Positions 3,341-60,542 of a DNA stretch of 64,000 nucleotides are shown one piece after another; the stretch's first letter is position 1; every line of letters starts with the position of its first letter. The position numbers and the translations under genes were made by a program. Location of the stretch: positions 43,670,277 through 43,734,276 of the forward strand of contig NC_065543.1 of the NCBI RefSeq assembly GCF_932294415.1, read 5' to 3'. Source of the stretch: Quercus robur (Eukaryota > Streptophyta > Magnoliopsida > Fagales > Fagaceae). Below the pieces are notes generated by a model. That model made no database searches. It saw only the letters and a list, made by a program, of their open reading frames with translations, and was not told the origin of the DNA.

Positions 3341-3983
3341 TGTAAGGACACGATTTGCAACGAACCACAACAGTGTTGGGTTCGCACGTAAAAAGGCCCA
3401 GACAATATCATTTGTAGAGAGTGGGTTTGAAAGGCTAGACTTTGGTTACCCGGCGGTGGGTTTTTTTGTGGTGTTCATACATGTTTAAGGTGTTTTCACC
3501 CCTAGAGTCTTTCTCCTGGAGGTGGGTTGGGAGGCCCTCACTTTTGGCCATTTTTCCCAGCCCCCTTTCCAGATTACTTACTTTTTCTTTTATACTAGAC
3601 TGCGTTCGCTTTCCTTCGTCCACGTGTAGGGTCGACCTTTCCAAGACTGATACTTGTCCCGTCAGTCCAAACCCAAAGTCGTTGGGGGTGGTTGATAAAG
3701 CCGAAGAATACGGCTCTGTTAGGTGCAGAGTATTGTATGGGAAGGCTAGTAAGGGCAGCCTTTCCTAGATATTTTAGATTCTCTTCCAGGTTTGTTCCTA
3801 TACCGTTTTCGCCCTTCTTCTCGATGGAACTTTGGGTCAGCCGAGGACTGTACTGTCCTCGGCTGCATCTCCGGGCCATTTTGTGCTTTATATTATTGAG
3901 TTTGGGCCATAGTCTTCTTTGGCTTGGGCCTTCGGACTCCCCATGAGTAAGTGGGCCCGGCCCATAAATTATTGGACCTCACA
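3341..3983 (-). repeat. LTR of element 1, left copy (3' LTR in element orientation)
   Basis: Direct repeat partner of 6310-6952, bounded by TG and CA. It contains a near-perfect inverted repeat, gccgaggac...gtcctcggc, at 3840-3863. The same hairpin recurs in related form in the other LTRs of this window. Confidence 0.9.
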
Positions 3984-5780
3984 ACAGCCCCTCAAAACCC
4001 TGCTGTCCGACCTCTTGGTTGGAGAGGGGGGTTTTGGTAATACCGAGCCTTTATTATGGCTCATTTAATTCAGCCTTTCACTGACGTTGGCAATTCTCCA
4101 CCTGCCCAGGAGATGTATCGGTCTACGAGATGTTCCTCTTAATTTATTCACGATACGCTCATGCCGTTTGGTTATCCAAAGCGTGTCTTTAATAGTTTCC
4201 CTTCACGAGACCTCTCAGATTTAATGGTTACTAATGGTGTGGGGGAGCGGAACGGGCATATTCTTGTTTGCAGATTTCCTTGGAGATCTGAACACATTAA
4301 GTACCCTCCTCTTCGTCCCTCATATAAAGAGAAAAGACAAGAGTTGTTTCTCTCATACCTGAATCCCTTAGATTCCTCCCAGAGTTTACTTTTACCCTCT
4401 GGTTATACCTTAACCTGTAATACGTTCACCATAGTAATAAGCAATGAAGAAGCCATTCCCCTCCCAAAAACACCATGTTCTAATAAAGCTCGAAATGACT
4501 CGGTCAGGGCAAGGATAGTGGAGACTCAAGATTTGTCTCACCTTCCTTTCAGCCAAAATCCGAAGCAGGGACTCGTCACGTCTCACTTTCGGCGTGACTG
4601 AGTCAAGGACACCCATTATCAGCACCACCCGCTCTCTCATGAGCATATCTAACATGGCACCAGTGTGTTAGAAGTCAGGACTGGGGCAGGGACTAAGTGC
4701 CCCTGCTTCTTTCTCTCTTCGTTCACTGGTGCCTCCCTTTGCCTCTCTTTCTTCTTCTTTCCACCACCAGATCCATCCTGGTGCTTTTCCTTCTCCCTCT
4801 TTTGCTCATTTTTCTTTCTTTTCATCTCTTCCCTCTTCTTCTCCTCCTTCTTTTCATTCATCTCCTCCATCTTCCTCATTCATCTCCTCCATCTTTTTCT
4901 AAAGAAGGTCCTTCTCTCAATATGGGCGATACTGAGGCAGAGTTTGGAGGGACTTCGGAGACGAGTTTAAAAGACACCTGACCGTTTACTTATCTGTATT
5001 GCTAATGTTTTTTTTTTTTTTTTACTGTTTCGGCAGTTCACCTTTTGTATAGGCTTGTTTAAGCCCCTCTTTGTACGTTGTAATACATCTTTATATTAAT
5101 AAAAATTGTTATCATTTTACTTCGCATGCTCTATCTCTATGTTTCCGAAATGATAACGCAATGCATAGACATACAATCTTGTAAATTCTTTTTGTTTTTA
5201 AACTGTGACCGACGTCTAGGACCGAAGTTCCGGTTAATAAAAAGATCTTGCCCTGTGTTTATAAAAATAGTCCTGCTCAATAATATTGAATCGAACAAAA
5301 TGATACTTAGGGCTGAAACTCCCTTTAGGCTGGAAAAGAAAGGACATTATGATGAGCTTACCGAATCGGCCGGGTACAATACCGCCGACCTTAGAGTACA
5401 ATACTTGGGTCCTTAACCCCTTATCAAAGAGAAGGGCGTTTTTACGAATTTGCAAGTGCTGTTCGGCACAATAATATAGCATTTGAATCAATGACAACTA
5501 GGGCAACAATACTTGCTAAGAAAAAGATGTCCACATAACCTTAATAGAATTGTTTGGCACAACAATGCCGACCTGCGAAGAACGATACTTAACCCAAAAC
5601 TAGCCGAGATGAGAATTGGGTGCTCAATGCGGTGTAGGAAGTAACCATCCGAAGACATATCACCTGCAAAATGAACAGCCCCCTTAGGCTACTGAATAGT
5701 GGGGCGTTTCGCCATCTTCCTAACACTCTTATGGGCCTTAACCTTTTTCAGTATTTGAGCCGAGAACTTTCCCCATCCAA

Positions 5781-6100
5781 GTAGTTGGTTTCCTCGTAGG
5801 CTTGAGTCCGAGGACCATGCAATGCCTTGGTTCTGTCCAAAACCCAGTTTTGTCATCCAAGTAGTTGGTTTCCCCATAGGCTTGAGTCCGAGGACCTCGC
5901 AATGCCTTGGTTCTGTCCAAAACCCAATTTTGTCATCCAAGTAGTTGGTTTCCCCATAGGCTTGAGTCCGAGGACCTCGCAATGTCTTAGTTCTGTCCAA
6001 AACCTAGTTTAGTCGTCCAAGTAGTTGGTTTCCCCATAGGCTTGAGTCTGAGGACCTCGCAATGCCTTGGTTCTGTCCAAAACCTAGTTTTCGGCATGGG
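5781..6100. repeat. 80-bp tandem array inside element 1, four units
   Basis: Units begin at 5781, 5861, 5941 and 6021, exactly 80 bases apart. Each carries the core 'gagtccgaggac' followed by 'ttctgtccaaaac'. The same unit occurs in 78-81-bp form in element 2 at 55507-55830 and 57100-58070. Because 80 is not a multiple of three, no long open frame crosses the array. Confidence 0.9.
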
Positions 6101-6309
6101 AGCTTGGCTTTAAGGGAATTAGATCCTCGGCCAAGCCCCTAAAGCCATCTAAGTGATCAACGCTAGCAAGCGTAGCCCCTAGCCAAGAACCATAGCCCCT
6201 AGTGGAACTTTACACAAGAACCCTATAATCAACAGTTAGAAATGGCAAAGGGACTCTCTCGACCCACTGCCTATGCCAACACACAAGCCTTCCCACAGAC
6301 GGCGCCAAT

Positions 6310-6952
6310 TGTAAGGACACGATTTGCAACGAACCACAACAGTGTTGGGTTCGCACGTAAAAAGGCCCAGACAATATCATTTGTAGAGAGTGGGTTTGAA
6401 AGGCTAAGCCTTGGTTACCCGGCGGTGGGTTTTTTTGTGGTGTTCATACATGTTTAAGGTGTTTTCACCCCTGGAGTCTTTCTCCTGGAGGTGGGTTGGG
6501 AGACCCTCACTTTTGGCCATTTTTCCCAGCCCCCTTTCTAGATTACTTACTTTTTCTTTTATACTAGCCTGCGTTCGCTTTCCTTCGTCCACGTGTAGGG
6601 TCGACCTTTCCAAGACTGATACTTATCCCGTCAGTCCAAACCCAAAGTCGTTGGGGGTGGTTGATAAAGCCGAAGAATACGGCTCTGTTAGGTGCAGAGT
6701 ATTGTATGGGAAGGGTAGTAAGGGCAGCCTTTCCTAGATATTTTAGATTCTCTTCCAGGTTTGTTCCTATACCGTTTTTGCCCCTCTTCTCGGTGGAACT
6801 TTGGGTCAGCCGAGGACTGTACTGTCCTCGGCTGCATCTCCGGGCCATTTTGTGCTTTATATTATTGAGCTTGGGCCATAGTCTTCTTTGGCTTGGGCCT
6901 TCGGACTCCCCATGAGTAAGTGGGCCTGGCCCATAAATTATTGGGCCTCACA
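6310..6952 (-). repeat. LTR of element 1, right copy (5' LTR in element orientation)
   Basis: Partner of 3341-3983, adjoining the primer-binding site on its left. It ends CCTCACA on the plus strand and is followed by the atatc target duplication. Confidence 0.9.
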
Positions 6953-33851: not shown

Positions 33852-36800
33852 ATCTCCCCCTCCAGCCCACTATAGAGGAGATCTTCAACCCAACACTTCA
33901 GTTAGAATTCACGCCAGCTAACCCGACACAAAGCTTTAGCTTCTCTCTAGACACAACCTTAATTAACATTTCAGCTGGATTTTCATCTGTGTGAATCTTC
34001 TGTAATTCAAATGACTGTTGTTCAACAACTAGTCTCAATCACTTGTATCTCACTTCAATGTGCTTCGAGCGTGAATGGTACATAGAATTCTTGCTCAAGT
34101 CTATAGCACTCTGACTATCACAATTAACTACATACCCATCTTGCTTCAAACCCAATTCTTGGAAAAACCATTTCAACCAAAGCATCTCTTTACCTGCTTC
34201 ATTAGCTGCAATATACTCGGTTTCAGTTGTAGATAAGGCAGCACACTTCTGCAATCTTGACTGCCATGATACAGCTCCCCCTGCAAAAGTAAATAAATAC
34301 CCCAATGTAGATTTCCTACCATCAAGGTCACCTGTCCAATTTGCATCTACATAACCCTCTAAAATTGGTTTAAATCACCAAAAGTCAAGCACAATTTAGA
34401 GCTACCTCTCAAGTACCTGAAAATCCACTTCATTGCTTCCTAGTGATCTTTACCAGGATTAACCATGAACTTGCTGACAACACCAACTGCATGAGCAATA
34501 TCTAGTTGTGTGTAAACCATAGCATACATCAAACTCCCAACTGTTGAGGAATAAATAGTTGATACTATGTCTTTTTTCTCTTTCTTGGATGAAGAACAAG
34601 ATTTCTTTCTTAGCTTGAAATGAGCACCAAGAGGCGTACTAACTGGCTTGGCATGCTTCATATTGAACCTTTCAAGAACTCGCTTAATATACTTCTCTTG
34701 TGTTAACCATAGCTTCTTAGCTTTCCTGTCACGAAGAATTTGCATACCCAAAATTTGCCTTGTAGGACCCAAGTCTTTTATATCAAATGACTTGAACAAG
34801 TCCTTTAAATTTCCAATCACACCTGCATCTTGTCTTACTATCAACATATCATCTACATATAGCAGAAGAATAACAAATTTACCATTAGGAAATTTTCTAA
34901 CATACACACAATGATCTGCATTTGTCCTTGTGTACCCGTGACCCACCATGAATGAGTCAAAATTCTTGTACCACTGTCTTAGAGCTTGCTTCAAACCATA
35001 TAAACTCTTCTTTAACTTGCAAACCATGTGTTCTTTCCTATTCACTTTGAATCCCTCTGGTTGATCCATGTAGATTTCTTCTTTCAAATCACCATGAAGA
35101 AAAGCAGTCTTCACATCAAGTTGCTCAAGCTCAAGATCCAAGCTAGCTACTAATCCCAAAACTACCCGAATGGAACTCATCTTGACTACTGGAGAGAATA
35201 TCTCATTATAGTCAATCCCTTGTTTCTAACCGAAACCCTTAACCACCAATCAAGCTTTATACTTCACTAACTTGTCATCATATTTCTTTAGCTTGAACAC
35301 CCATTTGTTTCTCAGTACCTTCTTGCCTTTAGGAAGTTCCACCAAGTCATAAGTCTTATTCTTATTCAAAGAATTCATCTCTTCATGCATAGCCTTCAAC
35401 CAACTTTGCTTATCCTTATGTGACTGTACTTCCTGAAAACTTTCTGGCTCTCTCTCTTCAGTAATCATAGTATACTCAAAAGTGGGGTATCTAGTAGATG
35501 GACGATGCTCTCTAGTAGACCTTCTCACCTGAGGTTCTACTATCTCTAGTGGAGGAGGCTACTCCCCCTGCTCAACACTATTTGTATTTGTCACATCATC
35601 ACCATCAACACCTGCTGGCTCATCAGCATCAAATTCAGTTGGTTCATCACCATAATTCTCATCTTGTACCTCTTCCCTATTTGTGACATTATTTGAGGAG
35701 GGAAGTAGGTGTAAGATCAGGAACACCTCCAACTGTAGCTTTAGGCTTTTCAATTTTCTCAAAGTCTGCCAAGTTTTCATTCTCATGAAAAACTACATCT
35801 CGACTTTTAATCATCTTCTTTTCTTTTGGATCCCATAGCTTGTAGCCAAATTCTGCATCTCCATATCTAACAAATATACAAGAAGTGGATTTGCTATCAA
35901 GTTTTGATCTTTGTTCCTTAGGCACATGTACAAATGCTTTGCACCCAAATTCCTTCAAGTGAGAGTAATAAACATCTTTTCATGTCCATACTCTTTCTGG
36001 AATATCAAAACCCAAAGGAACTGATGGAGATCTATTAATTAGGTAGCATGCAGTCACAACAGCTTCACCCCAGAATGACTTAGGAAGATTAGCCATTCTC
36101 AACATACATCTAATCTTCTTAATAATAATGCAGTTCATCCTTTCTGCCATACCATTTTGTTGTGAGGTACTAAGAACTATCTTCTCATGTCTAATGCCTT
36201 TCTCGAAGCAATAACTCTTGAATTCATTAGATGTGTATTCACCTCCATTATCACTATGGAGATACTTCAAAGGCTTCACTTTCTCTCTTTCCACCATGGT
36301 ATGAAATTTCTTGAAGTGCTAAAAAATTTGGTCTTTAGTTTTCAAAACATAAACCCACACCTTTCGTGAAGCATCATCAATAAATGTAACAAAATATTTA
36401 TTGCCACCTAAAGTCTCAACATCAATGGGACCACATACATCAGAATAAATAAGATCTAATACATTGGGTTTTCTAGTAGAGGGTATATTAAATGAAACTC
36501 TATGTTGTTTACCAAATAAACAAAAGTCACAAGGATTTAGTGACATACTTTTGGCAAAGGGAATGAGAGACTTCTTTGCCAAAATCTGCAACCCTTTTTC
36601 ACTCATGTGAGCCAACCGCCTATGCCACAAGTTAGGCGAAGAATCCTCCTAAGCTGCACTAACAACATTCTTGCACAACTTTACTTGTGTCTTGTAAAGT
36701 GTACAACAAATTTTCCCTCTAGCAAACACTAATGCTCTTGTCATATGGTTAGGACCTCATCTTCCAACACTAACAGCAACAGTGTTCTCATCATCCGCCT

Positions 36801-52105: not shown

Positions 52106-53466
52106 ACTGGATTTTTATGTGGTTCATAAATACCCCTAGACCCTACGTTTAATAGCAAAATATACACACAATTGAATATTTCTTGATTGTCTTAAAAGCT
52201 TAAAGAAATAAGAAAATAGTGATTTTTTTTTTTTTGGACAAGTTAATAAATAGTGAATTGTTTACTCATATAATTATGATGTTAACATTCCCTCACCGTC
52301 TCACATGTGGAAGTACTAGACGGCTAGACTCCCTTACCTAAACTTAAACACTCGTGAATATTTTCTAATGCCAAATTATCAATAGTCTTAAAAGATTAAG
52401 TTGTTAGAAAATTATGAATTTAATCATTTTATTATAATCCTAAAATTTGATGTTATAGATACGTGAAATGCTAAACTATGAAAACCTTGTTTAATTAGCA
52501 TGTGATGTTGGCTTTATTTGAGTTTTTGTGCGCTTTGTATATGATTTTAGGTACAACGAGATTTAGAAGAACTACCTTCTCAAGCTTTTAGTCCATTGCG
52601 TGATTCCTTAAGATGAGTGAGTATCTTTTTTATACCTTTGACCATGGAAGAGGCTTGGATAAATATCATATTTTCTAATTACTACTACGTATACTAAATT
52701 ACTAATTACGTTGCCAGATAAATATGAATAAATGGTCAATATATTGGGTGGGTTTTAAGCGAAAACCAAAACCCTCCTCATATAATTATAAGGTGGGTTT
52801 TTCACTTTACTTTTTGGAAGAGAATATTTTCCTTGATATACTTTGTTTAAAAAAAAAAAATTTAATTATGTAATTGCACAAGGGTATATATATAGAAAAA
52901 GAATGAGATTTTTAAAAACTAGAGTATACAATAGTTAAAGATAAAAATAAGATGGCATGATAATTAAGCTAAAATAAACAGATCTACAATATAACTTTGC
53001 TAAAAGAATAGAAATTTATGTAAGTTGTACGTGATATCTATCTAACATTTAAAAACCTTAATTTTCATTTGTAAGTAGAATTATGACTTTGAAAAAAGAT
53101 TATCATGTGCAGAAACCCCTCACAGATAAATATAATATAATGAATACGTTATTTTAATGTGAATTTTTTTTTTTTTTTTTTTTTGGGCAATCGAGTACCA
53201 GTTAGCATTTATCTGAATTAATTGTTATTTTTCAAAATGACCTCAAATACTATACGAATATGCATGTTTGCAAACATATGCGTAAATGTGCATATGTCAA
53301 ATATAAATTTTGCCTCCCGTCAAGTCAAATCTTAACTTTGCCACTAATCACATCCATTTAAAATGGATTTATTTTATGATTCTAATTAAAATGTTACAAA
53401 TTTTAAAAAGTGTCCAATGACACGTTGTAAACACAAAGTGTCTGTTTGGCTAGGGTTTATAAGCTC

Positions 53467-54077
53467 TGTAAGGACACGATTTGCGTTGGACCACAGTAGG
53501 GTTGGGTTCGCACGTAAATGGACCCGTACAATATCATTTGTAGAGAGTGGGATCGAAAGGCTAAGTCATGTTTACTCGGCTGTGGTTTTGTTAAGTTGTT
53601 CATGCATGATCTAGAGGTGTTCACCCCTTTTTGGTCCTTTTCTTTCCGGGAGGATCCCCCTCTTTAGGTTGCAAATTTTCCTTTTATATTAGCATGCATT
53701 CAATTTCCTTCGTCCACGTGTAGGGTCGAACTTTCCTAGCCTGACACTTGTCCCATCAGTTTAAGACCTGAGTTGTTGGGAGTGGTTGAGTAGGCTAAAG
53801 AGACACGACTCTGTGAGAGGCAAAGCTCCGTCTAGGGCAGGTAGTTTGGGCAGCCTGTCCTAGATATTTTATATTTCTTACAAGATTATCCCTATGCCGC
53901 TTTTACCCCTTTCCTTAGTGTAGCTCTGGGCTAGCCGAGGGCTGTACCTTCCTCGGCGGTTTCTATGGCCCATTGGTGCTTTGTGTTTATTGGGCTGGGA
54001 CTACTATCCTCTTCGGCCTGGGCCTTAAGTATTCCTGTGAATAGGTGGATCTGGCCCATCTGTTGTCGGGCCCCACA
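53467..54077 (-). repeat. LTR of element 2, left copy (3' LTR in element orientation)
   Basis: 611 bases, TG...CA bounded, essentially identical to 58309-58919. It contains the inverted repeat gccgagggc...cctcggc near 53935-53960. Confidence 0.92.
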
Positions 54078-55506
54078 ATAGCCCCTCAAAACCCTGCTAT
54101 CCAACTCCTCGGTTGGAAAGGTGGGTTTTGATAATACCGAGACTTTATTGCGGCTCATTAAGTTCGGCCCTTGATCAACGTCGGCGACTTTTCACCTCCC
54201 CAAGGAATGCGCCGGTCTACGAGATATTTCCCTTGACTTACGCGTGATGCGTTTATTCCGTTTGGTTAGCCGTAGTGCGCTTTTAATGTCTTCCTTTTAC
54301 GAGGCCTCTTAACTCTAGCGGTTACGGATAGCTTGGAGAAACGAAACGGTTTTGCATTTACTAGCAGATTTCTTAGAGGATCGGAGCGTGTCACGTACCC
54401 TCGTCTTTTTCCCCTGTATAAAGAGAGAAGACAAGAAGGTGATTCTCTCATATGCGAATCCCTTAGACTTTTCTCAGAATCCACCTCTTCCCTCTGGTTA
54501 TTCCTCATTCGATAACACGTCCCCCATAGTGATCAACCATGAATGAATCCCTCCTTTCCCAGAAACACCATACCTTAACGAAACTTGAGATGGCTCGGTT
54601 GGGGCAAGGGTGGTGGAGACTCAAGGTTTGTCTCCCCATTCTTTTAGCCAAAATCCGAAGCAGGGACTCGTCATACCCCATTTTTGGTGTGACTGAGTCG
54701 AAAACCTCCCTTGTCATCTCCATCCGCTCTCTCATGAGCATACCTAATATGGCTCCCATTCTCCCTCTTTTGCTCCTTTTACTTTCTTTTCATTGCTTCC
54801 CTCTTCTTCTCCTCCTTCCCGCTCATGTCCTCCATCTTCTTTTTCCCTTGCTTTTTTCAGCAACAAGAGCTTGCTGAAGTGCTTCCATGTGTTCCAATTC
54901 TTCTTCCTTGTCCTTCATTATTTTTGTATAAGGTTCTTCTCCTGATATGAGCAGTACTGAGGCAGAGATTTCAGAGAGACTTTGAAGGCGAATTCAGAAG
55001 ACACTTGGTGGTTTACTTATTTATGTTACGGTTGTTGTTACTGTTTTAGCAGTTTATTTTTTTTGTATAGGCTTGTTTAAGCCCTTCCTTGTATGTTGTA
55101 ACAATTTTTCATATTAATAAAAGTGATTGTTATTCTATTTCGTATGTCTTGTTTATATACTTTAACAAATGTGAATGCGCTGCTCGGCATAATAGTATAG
55201 CATTTCAATTAATAATAAATAAGGCCAAAGTAATCGTTGATAAAAAGATGCCACGATGACTTTAACAAAATTATTATTCAACGTAGCAATCCGTCCAGTG
55301 TGGAATGAGACTTATCTTAAAATTAGCCGTGATGGGTATTAAATGCTCTGATTAGATGTAAGAAGTAGCTATCCGAGAACGTGTTACCCACCGGATGAAT
55401 GGCCTCTTTAGGTTGACGATCATTAGGTTGTTCTGCCATCTCCATGACACGCGAGCCTTAACATTTTCCAGTATTTAAGCCGAGGAGTTTCTTCATTTGG
55501 GCAGTT

Positions 55507-55830
55507 GATTTCCCAAGCAACCTGAGTCCGAGGACTTTGCAAAACCTGGGTTCTGTCCAGGACTTATGCGTTTTATCCTATGAACTTGATTTTTCCTTTT
55601 AGTTTGAGTCCGAGGACCATGCAAGCCTTAGGTTCTGTCCGAGACCAATGTTTGCATTAGTACGTGGTTTTCCCTTTTAGCTTGAGTCCGAGGACCATGC
55701 AAGCCTTAGGTTCTGTCCGAGACCAATGTTTGCATTAGTACGTGGTTTTCCCTTTTAGCTTGAGTCCGGGGACCATGCAAGCCTTAGGTTCTGTCCAAGA
55801 CTAATGTCTGCACTAGTACTTGGTTTCCCC
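55507..55830. repeat. First tandem array of element 2, 78-81-bp units
   Basis: Unit marks at 55507, 55588, 55666, 55744 and 55822 (spacing 81, 78, 78, 78). Each unit contains 'gagtccgaggac' and 'ggttctgtcc'. All three minus-strand frames are closed within a unit, so it is not coding. Confidence 0.88.
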
Positions 55831-57033
55831 TATCTTTGAGCATTTCCCGAGGTGCCCAACAGTGATTGTCCTCGGCCATGGCCGCTGCTCGGCGTCGGCC
55901 AAAGTACCTGGGCCCTTAAACAAAGCGGCCCCGGGGCCACGAATCCACCTAGCCCATGAATTAAGAGATATTTCTTCAACTTCTGGCCACGTGGTACCCT
56001 TTGATGTCACGATGACCGAAGTGCGCCTTTACGAGGTTCTTTAATCTTGTGGTTGCAGTTGATGTTGGAAGTTGAGCCAAGACTGTTTTGTCTATAGCGT
56101 TTCTCGGGACGCCACATGAGTTGACTGCCATCACCTTGTCTTTTCCAATAAATGGGAAGCAGAGAAAGTTGCTTTATATACGCACAAATCCTTCAGATTT
56201 TCTCCCACATCACAGCTTCCATATCCGGAGTTCTCCCTTCTTGGCATAACATGTTGAAAGTGAGGGTTGGGAAGAAAGAAGTGTCTCCGCCGCAGAAGCG
56301 CCGTGTCTTCATGAGGCTTATAACAGTAAGGTATGGGCACAGGAAGCATAAGTTCAGGAGAGTATTCCATCTCCACCGAGGGAGAATGGCGTCTCTCCCT
56401 CTTTTAGCCAAAATCCGAAGCAGGCTCTGTTCATGCCAGCACTTTGGTATGGCAGAAGAAGGGTTTTCCTCCATCAGCGCCTCTGCTTTGCGGCAGGTGT
56501 ATATTTAGAGAAAGCCCCATCACCTTCAACTCCCTGCACCTTTTCTTCAACGGTGTCAGGTTCAAGTTGGGTCTTTTTGGCTGCCTGAGTTATGGGCATG
56601 TAAGGGTGCGGGGGAAGAATAAGGTCTCGGAGCTGTAGCCAACCTTTCCTCCGACATACCTCCTCGGCTTTCTCCAGCTTTCTTGTATTTTCTTTTCTTG
56701 CTTATGTAGTAAGCTTTGACGTGGGCTGATTCCAGCTTTTCATTTGTACATTGTACTATTTCTTTATCGTAATAAAAATGGAAATTGATTTACATGTTTT
56801 AAACGTTGATCTAATGGGCAACACAACTCTGTGAACGAATGTGCTCTATGTATGTGTTGCTTAGAGAGTATTTGTGATAAAGCTACTTTGAAGCATAATC
56901 TAATCAAATCTCATCTGTCATCACTATCAGGTATTATACCGATAATTTGTAATAAATCAAAGTTACGAAACTAACCGGGATATCAGTTGGACATTCTGTG
57001 ATAAGCGCGTGAATGTCGTCCAAGGCTGATGAT

Positions 57034-58281
57034 TTATAAACAATCTATCCGAGCAGTCGACTGGGAGTTAGGGAGCTCCGATGGCGCTTTTGTGTACTTG
57101 GTTTCCCCAGAGGCTTGGGTCCGAGGACCATGCAAGGCCTTGGTTCTGTCCAAAACTTGTATTCTCCTTTTTAAGTAGTTGGTTTCCCCAGAGGCTTGGG
57201 TCCGAGGACCATGCAAGGCCTTGGTTCTGTCCAAAACTTGTATGATTCTTTTTAAGTAGTTGGTTTCCCCAGAGGCTTGAGTCCGAGGACCATGCAAGGC
57301 CTTGGTTCTGTCCAAAACTTGTATGATTCTTTTTAAGTAATTGGTTTCCCCAGAGGCTTGAGTCCGAGGACCATGCAAGGCCTTGGTTCTGTCCAAAACT
57401 TGTATGATTCTTTTTAAGTAGTTGGTTTCCCCAGAGGCTTGAGTCCGAGGACCATGCAAGGCCTTGGTTCTGTCCAAAACTTGTATGATTCTTTTTAAGT
57501 AGTTGGTTTCCCCAGAGGCTTGAGTCCGAGGACCATGCAAGGCCTTGGTTCTGTCCAAAACTTGTATTCTCCTTTTTAAGTAGTTGGTTTCCCCAGAGGC
57601 TTGGGTCCGAGGACCATGCAAGGCCTTGGTTCTGTCCAAAACTTGTATTCTCCTTTTTAAGTAGTTGGTTTCCCCAGAGGCTTGGGTCCGAGGACCATGC
57701 AAGGCCTTGGTTCTGTCCAAAACTTGTATTCTCCTTTTTAAGTAGTTGGTTTCCCCAGAGGCTTGGGTCCGAGGACCATGCAAGGCCTTGGTTCTGTCCA
57801 AAACTTGTATGATTCTTTTTAAGTAGTTGGTTTCCCCAGAGGCTTGGGTCCGAGGACCATGCAAGGCCTTGGTTCTGTCCAAAACTTGTATGATTCTTTT
57901 TAAGTAGTTGGTTTCCCCAGAGGCTTGAGTCCGATGACCATGCAAGGCCTTGGTTCTGTCCAAAACTTGTATGATTCCTTTTAAGTAGTTGGTTTCCCCA
58001 GAGGCTTGAGTCCGAGGACCATGCAAGGCCTTGGTTCTGTCCAAAACTTGTATGCTTCTTTTTATTTGCTTGTTTTCTGAAGGTTTAGCTCCTCGAATAA
58101 GGTGGGGGGAGCTGGCCTGGTGTTTGAAGCCCCTAGGCTTGTCCATGTCGTTGACAACGTGGAACGTAGCCCCTAGTAAGAGCTTATGTTGGAATATCAG
58201 CAATATGTCGCCGGTGATATAGGCACCTTCATAGCCCCTTGTTCGACAGAAGCTCAACTTCGCCACCGCTCGAGCTAACAT
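57034..58281 (-). other. 415-codon open frame of element 2 spanning the second array
   Basis: Starts 28 bases after the right LTR, just past the primer-binding site, where gag begins in complete relatives. About 70 N-terminal residues of unknown type are followed by twelve copies of a 27-residue repeat with core DRTKALHGPRTQASGETNY. No zinc knuckle or capsid motif is visible. Because the unit is 81 bases, one open unit keeps the whole array open, so the frame alone does not prove it is translated. Confidence 0.4.
57090..58070. repeat. Second tandem array of element 2, twelve exact 81-bp units
   Basis: The mark 'ggtttcccc' recurs at 57100, 57181, 57262, 57343, 57424, 57505, 57586, 57667, 57748, 57829, 57910 and 57991, always 81 bases apart. 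Two subtypes alternate in blocks, ending in 'attctccttttta' or 'atgattcttttta', which shows block amplification. Confidence 0.96.
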
Positions 58282-58308
58282 GCAAGCCTCCCCACAGACG
58301 GCGCCAAT

Positions 58309-58919
58309 TGTAAGGACACGATTTGCGTTGGACCACAGTAGGGTTGGGTTCGCACGTAAATGGACCCGTACAATATCATTTGTAGAAAGTGGGATCGAAA
58401 GGCTAAGTCATGTTTACTCGGCTGTGGTTTTGTTAAGTTGTTCATGCATGATCTAGAGGTGTTCACCCCTTTTTGGTCCTTTTCTTTCCGGGAGGATCCC
58501 CCTCTTTAGGTTGCAAATTTTCCTTTTATATTAGCATGCATTCAATTTCCTTCGTCCACGTGTAGGGTCGAACTTTCCTAGCCTGACACTTGTCCCATCA
58601 GTTTAAGACCTGAGTTGTTGGGAGTGGTTGAGTAGGCTAAAGAGACACGACTCTGTGAGAGGCAAAGCTCCGTCTAGGGCAGGTAGTTTGGGCAGCCTGT
58701 CCTAGATATTTTATATTTCTTACAAGATTATCCCTATGCCGCTTTTACCCCTTTCCTTAGTGTAGCTCTGGGCTAGCCGAGGGCTGTACCTTCCTCGGCG
58801 GTTTCTATGGCCCATTGGTGCTTTGTGTTTATTGGGCTGGGACTACTATCCTCTTCGGCCTGGGCCTTAAGTATTCCTGTGAATAGGTGGATCTGGCCCA
58901 TCTGTTGTCGGGCCCCACA
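58309..58919 (-). repeat. LTR of element 2, right copy (5' LTR in element orientation)
   Basis: Partner of 53467-54077, adjoining the primer-binding site at its left edge and the agctc target duplication at its right edge. Confidence 0.92.
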
Positions 58920-60297: not shown

Positions 60298-60542
60298 CGT
60301 CATTTAGAATTTTAAATGTCACAACACTATATAGGAGGCTCTCATACCATAACAATAGAGGATACTTTATTACTTCTTCTTGGTCCACGCATCAAAAAAT
60401 ATCTTTTGGGTGACAATATCACAATACCGCTCTAAAAATCCGCTCATTTGTTATTTGGTTGTTGCATATTTTAAGAAAGGAATCAAGGGATAGAATTCTA
60501 TATAGTTGACTCATGCTCGTGTATTTTTGTTTTGCAGCAAAT
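60298..60542. other. Proximal upstream region of UGT copy C
   Basis: From about 60330 it aligns with the last 200 bases before copy B, including 'tgtatttttgttttgcag'. Homology with A and B breaks off to the left near the possible solo LTR. Confidence 0.5.

Follow-up and report, generated by a model that had tools for sequence, protein, structure and literature searches.

A recent, probably Tat/Retand-like non-autonomous retrotransposon of Quercus robur with putative antisense units and tandem arrays that apparently give rise to satellite DNA

Introduction

Plant long terminal repeat (LTR) retrotransposons of several groups combine antisense open reading frames (ORFs) with internal tandem repeats. 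In the accessible text on recently active Retand elements, antisense coding regions are reported for all of them and tandem arrays for about half, and 10 of 63 Retand clusters lack at least one typical domain (PMC11963269). According to the available sections of another study, Grande (with gene23), RIRE2 and Retand have antisense ORFs adjoining their 3' LTR, that of Grande being driven by its own promoter (PMC7264820). For Lathyrus sativus, the accessible part of the source describes Ogre arrays that are short inside LTR elements and occasionally expand into satellites, one of them up to 174 kb long; for two satellites, the arrays often reside in non-autonomous elements devoid of pol, and the long arrays, as inferred from reads, lie mainly in primary constrictions (PMC7004042). 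Here, we analyze a related arrangement in a 64,000-nucleotide stretch of the Quercus robur genome (NC_065543.1, positions 43,670,277 to 43,734,276; hereafter the window), in which an LTR element occupies positions 53467-58919.

Our results make it likely that this element is a non-autonomous LTR retrotransposon of Tat/Retand-like character that carries two putative antisense units and whose arrays seed satellite DNA.

Results

The element at 53467-58919 is an intact and recent copy of an LTR retrotransposon. Its two 611-bp LTRs (53467-54077 and 58309-58919) have TG...CA ends, differ by a single mismatch at LTR position 79 and are bordered on their outer sides by the target-site duplication (TSD) AGCTC. 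A primer-site-like motif, ACGGCGCCA, is located at 58298-58306, 2 nt from the right-hand LTR; on the minus strand, it reads TGGCGCCGT, which we take to be a primer site of the tRNA-Asp type. Both elements of the window and 12 fetched loci carry the motif next to an LTR, and all instances detected in the window and in loci L033-L058 belong to this family. Because the right-hand LTR is adjoined by the primer site and the left-hand one by a polypurine-tract-like stretch (54078-54101, read directly from the letters and assigned its function from its position), the element reads from right to left on the minus strand. Paired LTRs, TSD, primer site and polypurine tract are the hallmarks of an LTR retrotransposon, and the single difference in 611 positions argues for a recent insertion. 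At a rate of 1.3e-8 substitutions per site per year, the insertion would be about 60,000 years old, or older if trees evolve more slowly. An earlier note on this sequence, which had described a young element with these termini, is thus confirmed in this respect.

In its own direction, the element comprises the 5' LTR (58309-58919), the primer binding site, a leader (58067-58297), array 2 (57086-58066), module 2 (55991-57085), a linker (55836-55990), array 1 (55500-55835), module 1 (54078-55500), the polypurine tract and the 3' LTR (53467-54077). Module 1 contains a TATA-like box at ~54417, an ORF of 112 aa (54539-54877) and an AATAAA signal at ~55116; its homolog, module 2, contains a TATA-like box at ~56175, an ORF of 118 aa (56152-56508) and an AATAAA signal at ~56771. 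All of these features lie on the plus strand, the strand on which the arrays and the linker are also listed, and since the element itself reads on the minus strand, the modules are antisense to it, an orientation that the earlier note had overlooked. The ORFs share a 17-nt core, exact copies of which are found at 4553, 54648 (54648-54664, module 1) and 56408 (56408-56424, module 2), essentially where the earlier note had placed its module marker (4556, 54649 and 56408). When up to three mismatches were allowed, the window still gave three matches, compared with 0.20 expected; none of 100 shuffles reached three. Array 1 consists of four units of 78-82 bp (repeat detection: 55590-55831, period 78, 3.1 copies) and array 2 of 12 units of 81 bp (57094-58064, period 81, 12 copies). 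The succession of module and array therefore does occur twice in this element and once in a relative at 3341-6952, as the earlier note had reported.

LARD-type elements exceed 4 kb, lack gag-pol, have a conserved interior and are moved in trans. The oak element resembles them in its coding capacity. Among the 16 ORFs of at least 60 aa that overlap it, 13 were included in a Pfam scan, together with a shorter form of one of them (the others, of 60-65 aa, lie at 53417-53614 and 54333-54515 on the plus strand and at 58275-58466 on the minus strand). These 13 revealed neither a gag nor a pol domain, in agreement with the previously noted lack of gag-pol and with a non-autonomous, LARD-like nature. 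The 12 non-array ORFs produced just two Pfam matches, both below cut-off (E 0.067 and 0.22). An ORF of 415 aa within an array gave nine matches to unrelated families, three of them slightly over the curated cut-offs (best E 2.2e-07), which we take to be artefacts of repeat composition; the 78-82-bp spacing of array 1 and the 80-bp spacing in the relative, combined with the unrelatedness of the matched families, rule it out as a genuine protein.

A search of the host genome (785,749,727 bases in 42 contigs) showed that the family has been mobilized repeatedly without enzymes of its own. The best 40 of 2522 LTR candidates, a selection in which old or diverged copies are under-represented, comprised the 24 LTRs belonging to 12 complete insertions, 12 solo LTRs flanked by matching TSDs and four others, one of them in a truncated copy, one beside a module 1 with its partner absent among the matches and two not fetched. 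A matching TSD was found for all 12 complete insertions, consistent with the earlier proposal that the element has kept moving. For module 2, the best 40 of 1764 candidates were scored. The family is thus multicopy, which excludes the single-copy status that would have marked the second module as an assembly artefact. Copies with one and with two modules, both envisaged in the earlier note, were indeed present among the 12 complete insertions (two modules in 11 and one module in one of them), and none with three or more was found there. The complete sequence was read for nine two-module copies (the window element, L033, L038, L044, L047, L048, L049, L050 and L051) and for L052, which contains module 1 alone and lacks module 2 as well as the linker that the two-module copies compared with it possess. 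A 5-bp TSD was seen in all nine further insertions read in this way. Another two-module copy, on contig C5, was read at both ends, all modules included, and a 19.3-kb copy on contig C37 was sampled, module 2 appearing in one 401-bp sample with 76% identity.

Some copies show additional rearrangements. L042, L044, L049 and L051 form a subfamily in which ~335-355 bp that hardly, if at all, resemble the usual sequence take the place of the end of module 2 (past position 810 of 1095), and the truncated copy in L035 (~2810) has its module 2 joined to sequence with a long ORF resembling the reverse transcriptase of a long interspersed nuclear element (LINE), reflecting either a nested insertion or a chimaera. 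The array pattern gave no matches in a collection of viral contigs and none in a collection of genome contigs; an 18-nt core pattern had exact matches in two viral contigs (L031 and L032), which we take to be due to chance.

One of the complete insertions, C5:4981532-5137261, spans 155.7 kb. Its LTRs (at 4981532 and 5136649) show two differences in 613 positions, and the TSD TATGA is found outside each of them. One LTR is followed inward by the leader and array 2, the other by module 1, array 1, the linker, module 2 and array 2. The array between these borders, which is made up of the same unit as array 2 of the window element, extends from ~4982376 to 5133741, corresponding to ~151 kb or 1,870 units if uninterrupted. 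All six samples taken from the interior (1501 bases each, 13 to 34 kb apart) were pure array with 81-bp spacing, on one strand and without N. Among 173 units, 95 were identical, and the 48 variants were distributed differently among the samples. Near one end of the array, a run of seven distinguishable units occurs three times, once with one unit changed, a pattern that fits recent block duplication. About 5 Mb separate the insertion from one end of its contig, which measures 89.2 Mb. In its sampled tenth, it thus displays what is expected of a retrotransposon-derived satellite, a long homogeneous array of an internal unit with parts of the element at its borders, and apparently represents a new satellite caught in the process of forming. 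In four 401-bp samples, the C37 copy (19,324 bp, TSD GTAAC, two LTR differences) shows a mixture of 81- and 65-bp units. Units of 65 bp, 16 bp shorter than the common type, are interleaved with 81-bp units in array 2 of L050 and in L059-L062, where they form a higher-order pattern.

The relative at 3341-6952 (minus strand) is a diverged one-module element with an LTR 72.7% identical to that of the window element (442 of 608 aligned positions). Its own LTRs agree in 628 of 643 positions, and its TSD is ATATC. Its array (5774-6091, period 80, four copies) has a composite structure: in comparison with the window element, mean unit identity is 78.7% for array 2 and 66.3% for array 1, the left flank is nearer to array 1 (106/166) than to array 2 (52/122), and the right flank is nearer to array 2 (117/208) than to array 1 (77/187). 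In L052, unit spacings of 82, 78 and 78 bp are followed by 81 bp eight times, array 1 running directly into array 2. Junctions of this kind are what a crossover between the two arrays would leave behind, so that both one-module copies look like deletions of module 2 by array-array recombination, and two modules, as found in 11 of the 12 complete insertions, appear to be the usual state. A remaining caveat for the relative at 3341-6952 is that a single array may have been homogenized by units of the array-2 type. Some array-1 units of L047 (placed by tree) and L048 resemble array 2, suggesting that the arrays may also swap units without module loss.

Modules 1 and 2 align over ~640 nt with a local score of 66, compared with a maximum of 23.5 in 200 dinucleotide shuffles; the linker was counted with module 2 in this test. 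Since the part before the core scored 44.5 (highest shuffle 22.5) and the part after it 22.0, a value reached by one of 200 shuffles, these alignments support homology firmly as far as the core and weakly after it. Divergence between the two modules far exceeds that between the module 1 sequences of the two element families, so the doubling must be old.

With regard to their possible function, a TATA-like box lies 230-234 nt ahead of the core in all 20 modules (11 of module 1 and nine of module 2), and in 19 of them an AATAAA signal is found no more than 700 nt beyond the core. Modules 1 and 2 have a common reading frame through the core, and over the first 75 codons of module 1 this frame is kept without gaps between the two element families. 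All five comparisons made for module 1 showed fewer amino-acid changes than the 500 permutations run for each (P 0.000 to 0.028); in comparisons of close copies with synonymous changes, the ratios for the entire frame of module 1 were ~0.4 to 1.1. From these patterns, both modules are probably small units of antisense transcription. A coding function is possible for module 1 and unproven for module 2.

The surroundings of the element contain three long, similar ORFs of 467-471 aa on the plus strand (28920, 40422 and 60510), which presumably encode plant glycosyltransferases; the element sits ~1.6 kb upstream of the one at 60510. Long ORFs of 1615 and 696 aa on the minus strand (48484 and 49904) may, we assume, belong to a LINE, and the sequence at 35225 (-) is presumably a fragment of a Copia-like reverse transcriptase.

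Discussion

Lacking a reverse transcriptase of its own, the element would be mobilized by the enzymes of another element acting on the LTR ends together with the primer site and the polypurine tract. In its interior, two anciently duplicated antisense modules would each combine a short ORF with a TATA-like box and, in most cases, a poly(A) signal, and each would be followed by a tandem array. These arrays may recombine, an exchange between array 1 and array 2 deleting module 2, as suggested by the junctions in the one-module copies. After insertion, array 2 could expand in chromosomal DNA, up to ~151 kb in the C5 copy, whose span, paired LTRs, TSD and sampled interior were seen directly. As an RNA intermediate of ~151 kb is implausible, unequal exchange or another form of amplification at the DNA level would be the most likely mechanism. 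The element is probably of the Ty3/Gypsy Tat/Retand type; it has the tandem arrays and antisense ORFs of these elements and lacks an antisense ORF with TRP28 (PF04195), and we therefore file it as Retand-like rather than as a member. With the best 150 of 4148 candidates scored, PF04195 matches prove numerous in the genome, often in ORFs of ~330-380 aa; they suggest an abundant Retand-like family, which at the only locus read is unrelated to the element, and make Retand-like helpers plausible.

Several points weigh against this interpretation. Its lineage assignment is based on arrays and antisense ORFs, and neither antisense ORF (112 and 118 aa) matched any Pfam family, TRP28 included. Neither an autonomous partner nor a coding relative with an identical interior was found in a narrow search, in which one of the best 150 TRP28 loci was read; it had nothing in common with the element except matches of 18-21 bases. 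Most of the 20 modules are closely related and amount to about three independent cases, and the TATA-like boxes of modules 1 and 2 fall in different alignment columns. All five comparisons indicating constraint in module 1 involve one sequence, the 3341 copy, whose frame has an in-frame stop. For module 2, comparison with the window copy gave P 0.032 in one of eight cases, and the other three with L050 showed no constraint. Some of these points would be expected if the modules were not genes at all and the core and its surroundings acted in cis on the genomic RNA, in packaging, dimerization, splicing or strand transfer, the ORFs and TATA-like boxes having arisen by chance. Between the families, few stretches of module 1 are as well conserved as the core (27/30), which is also the sole long exact match between modules 1 and 2, and TCTTTTAG ahead of it gives the impression of a 3' splice site. 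Against such a role in cis stand the codon constraint in module 1, the common frame of both modules through the core, and the TATA-like box and AATAAA at steady distances in the antisense direction. We hold it to be quite possible, though less likely than not.

The origin of the different copy types invites two further alternatives. According to the earlier note, the family grows by module duplication, one-module copies representing the older and two-module copies the derived state. One duplication did occur, given the homology of the modules, and the family is unrooted and without an outgroup. However, the junctions mixing array 1 and array 2 in both one-module copies examined lead us to reject growth as the history of these copies, and the predominance of two modules, the absence of a three-module copy among the complete insertions and the age of the doubling make it very improbable as the family's mode of evolution. 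The C5 copy, in turn, could be an assembly artefact or consist of two elements flanking a pre-existing satellite. Near-identical long arrays are indeed hard to assemble, and this one, known from the assembly alone, was read over ~15 kb, about a tenth of its length, a further point against satellite formation as proposed here. However, the LTRs share a TSD and are as similar as expected of a single insertion, the internal parts at the two sides complement each other to make up one element, the unit variants differ between samples without any N, and the C37 copy, with its own TSD, resembles an intermediate. We therefore regard an artefact or a chance pairing as rather improbable.

Under the reading that we favor, a non-autonomous element with antisense units and expanding arrays, one family offers a series of array states with a matching TSD each, ranging from 6 to 20 units through the 19-kb copy to the ~151-kb copy, so that LTR divergence could provide a date for the birth of a satellite, and its chromosomal setting could be weighed against that of copies with short arrays. 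Dispersed arrays have been regarded, in the available text, as a natural experiment on where satellites emerge (PMC7004042). Moreover, possible antisense units in an element without gag-pol provide a clean case for studying the function of plant retroelement antisense ORFs. More speculatively, and in our view unlikely, the sole cargo of the element might be two diverged antisense mini-genes that aid the exploitation of an autonomous element, as proteins or as antisense RNA, while its arrays repeatedly found satellites, making it a mobile, satellite-founding parasite.

The earlier note considered this kind of element undescribed. No description of this particular element was found in the literature searched (one library), and the family, its paired antisense modules without gag-pol and the single assembled insertion containing its own satellite are new as far as this literature goes; internal arrays and antisense ORFs, however, are already known in Retand/Tat elements, as the accessible parts of the sources make clear (PMC11963269, PMC7004042). 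Compared with LARD elements, the size, the lack of gag-pol and the conserved interior are alike, whereas the LTRs measure just 611 bp and the interior is made up of antisense modules and arrays. Retand, as far as described in the available text, shares the antisense coding regions near the 3' LTR, the tandem arrays and the existence of some defective clusters; in the oak element, by contrast, no gag-pol domain was found, the antisense ORFs are short and lack TRP28, and the combination of module and array is doubled (PMC11963269). Grande, RIRE2 and Retand, compared by their partly available description only, likewise have an antisense unit beside the 3' LTR, whereas here two diverged units occur without gag-pol (PMC7264820). 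The L. sativus Ogre satellites, according to the accessible sections, similarly involve expanding intra-element arrays and carriers without pol, whereas in oak both LTRs and the TSD bracket the array in one assembled insertion (PMC7004042). The principles are thus already known from these systems, and their combination in this element looks like a new variant.

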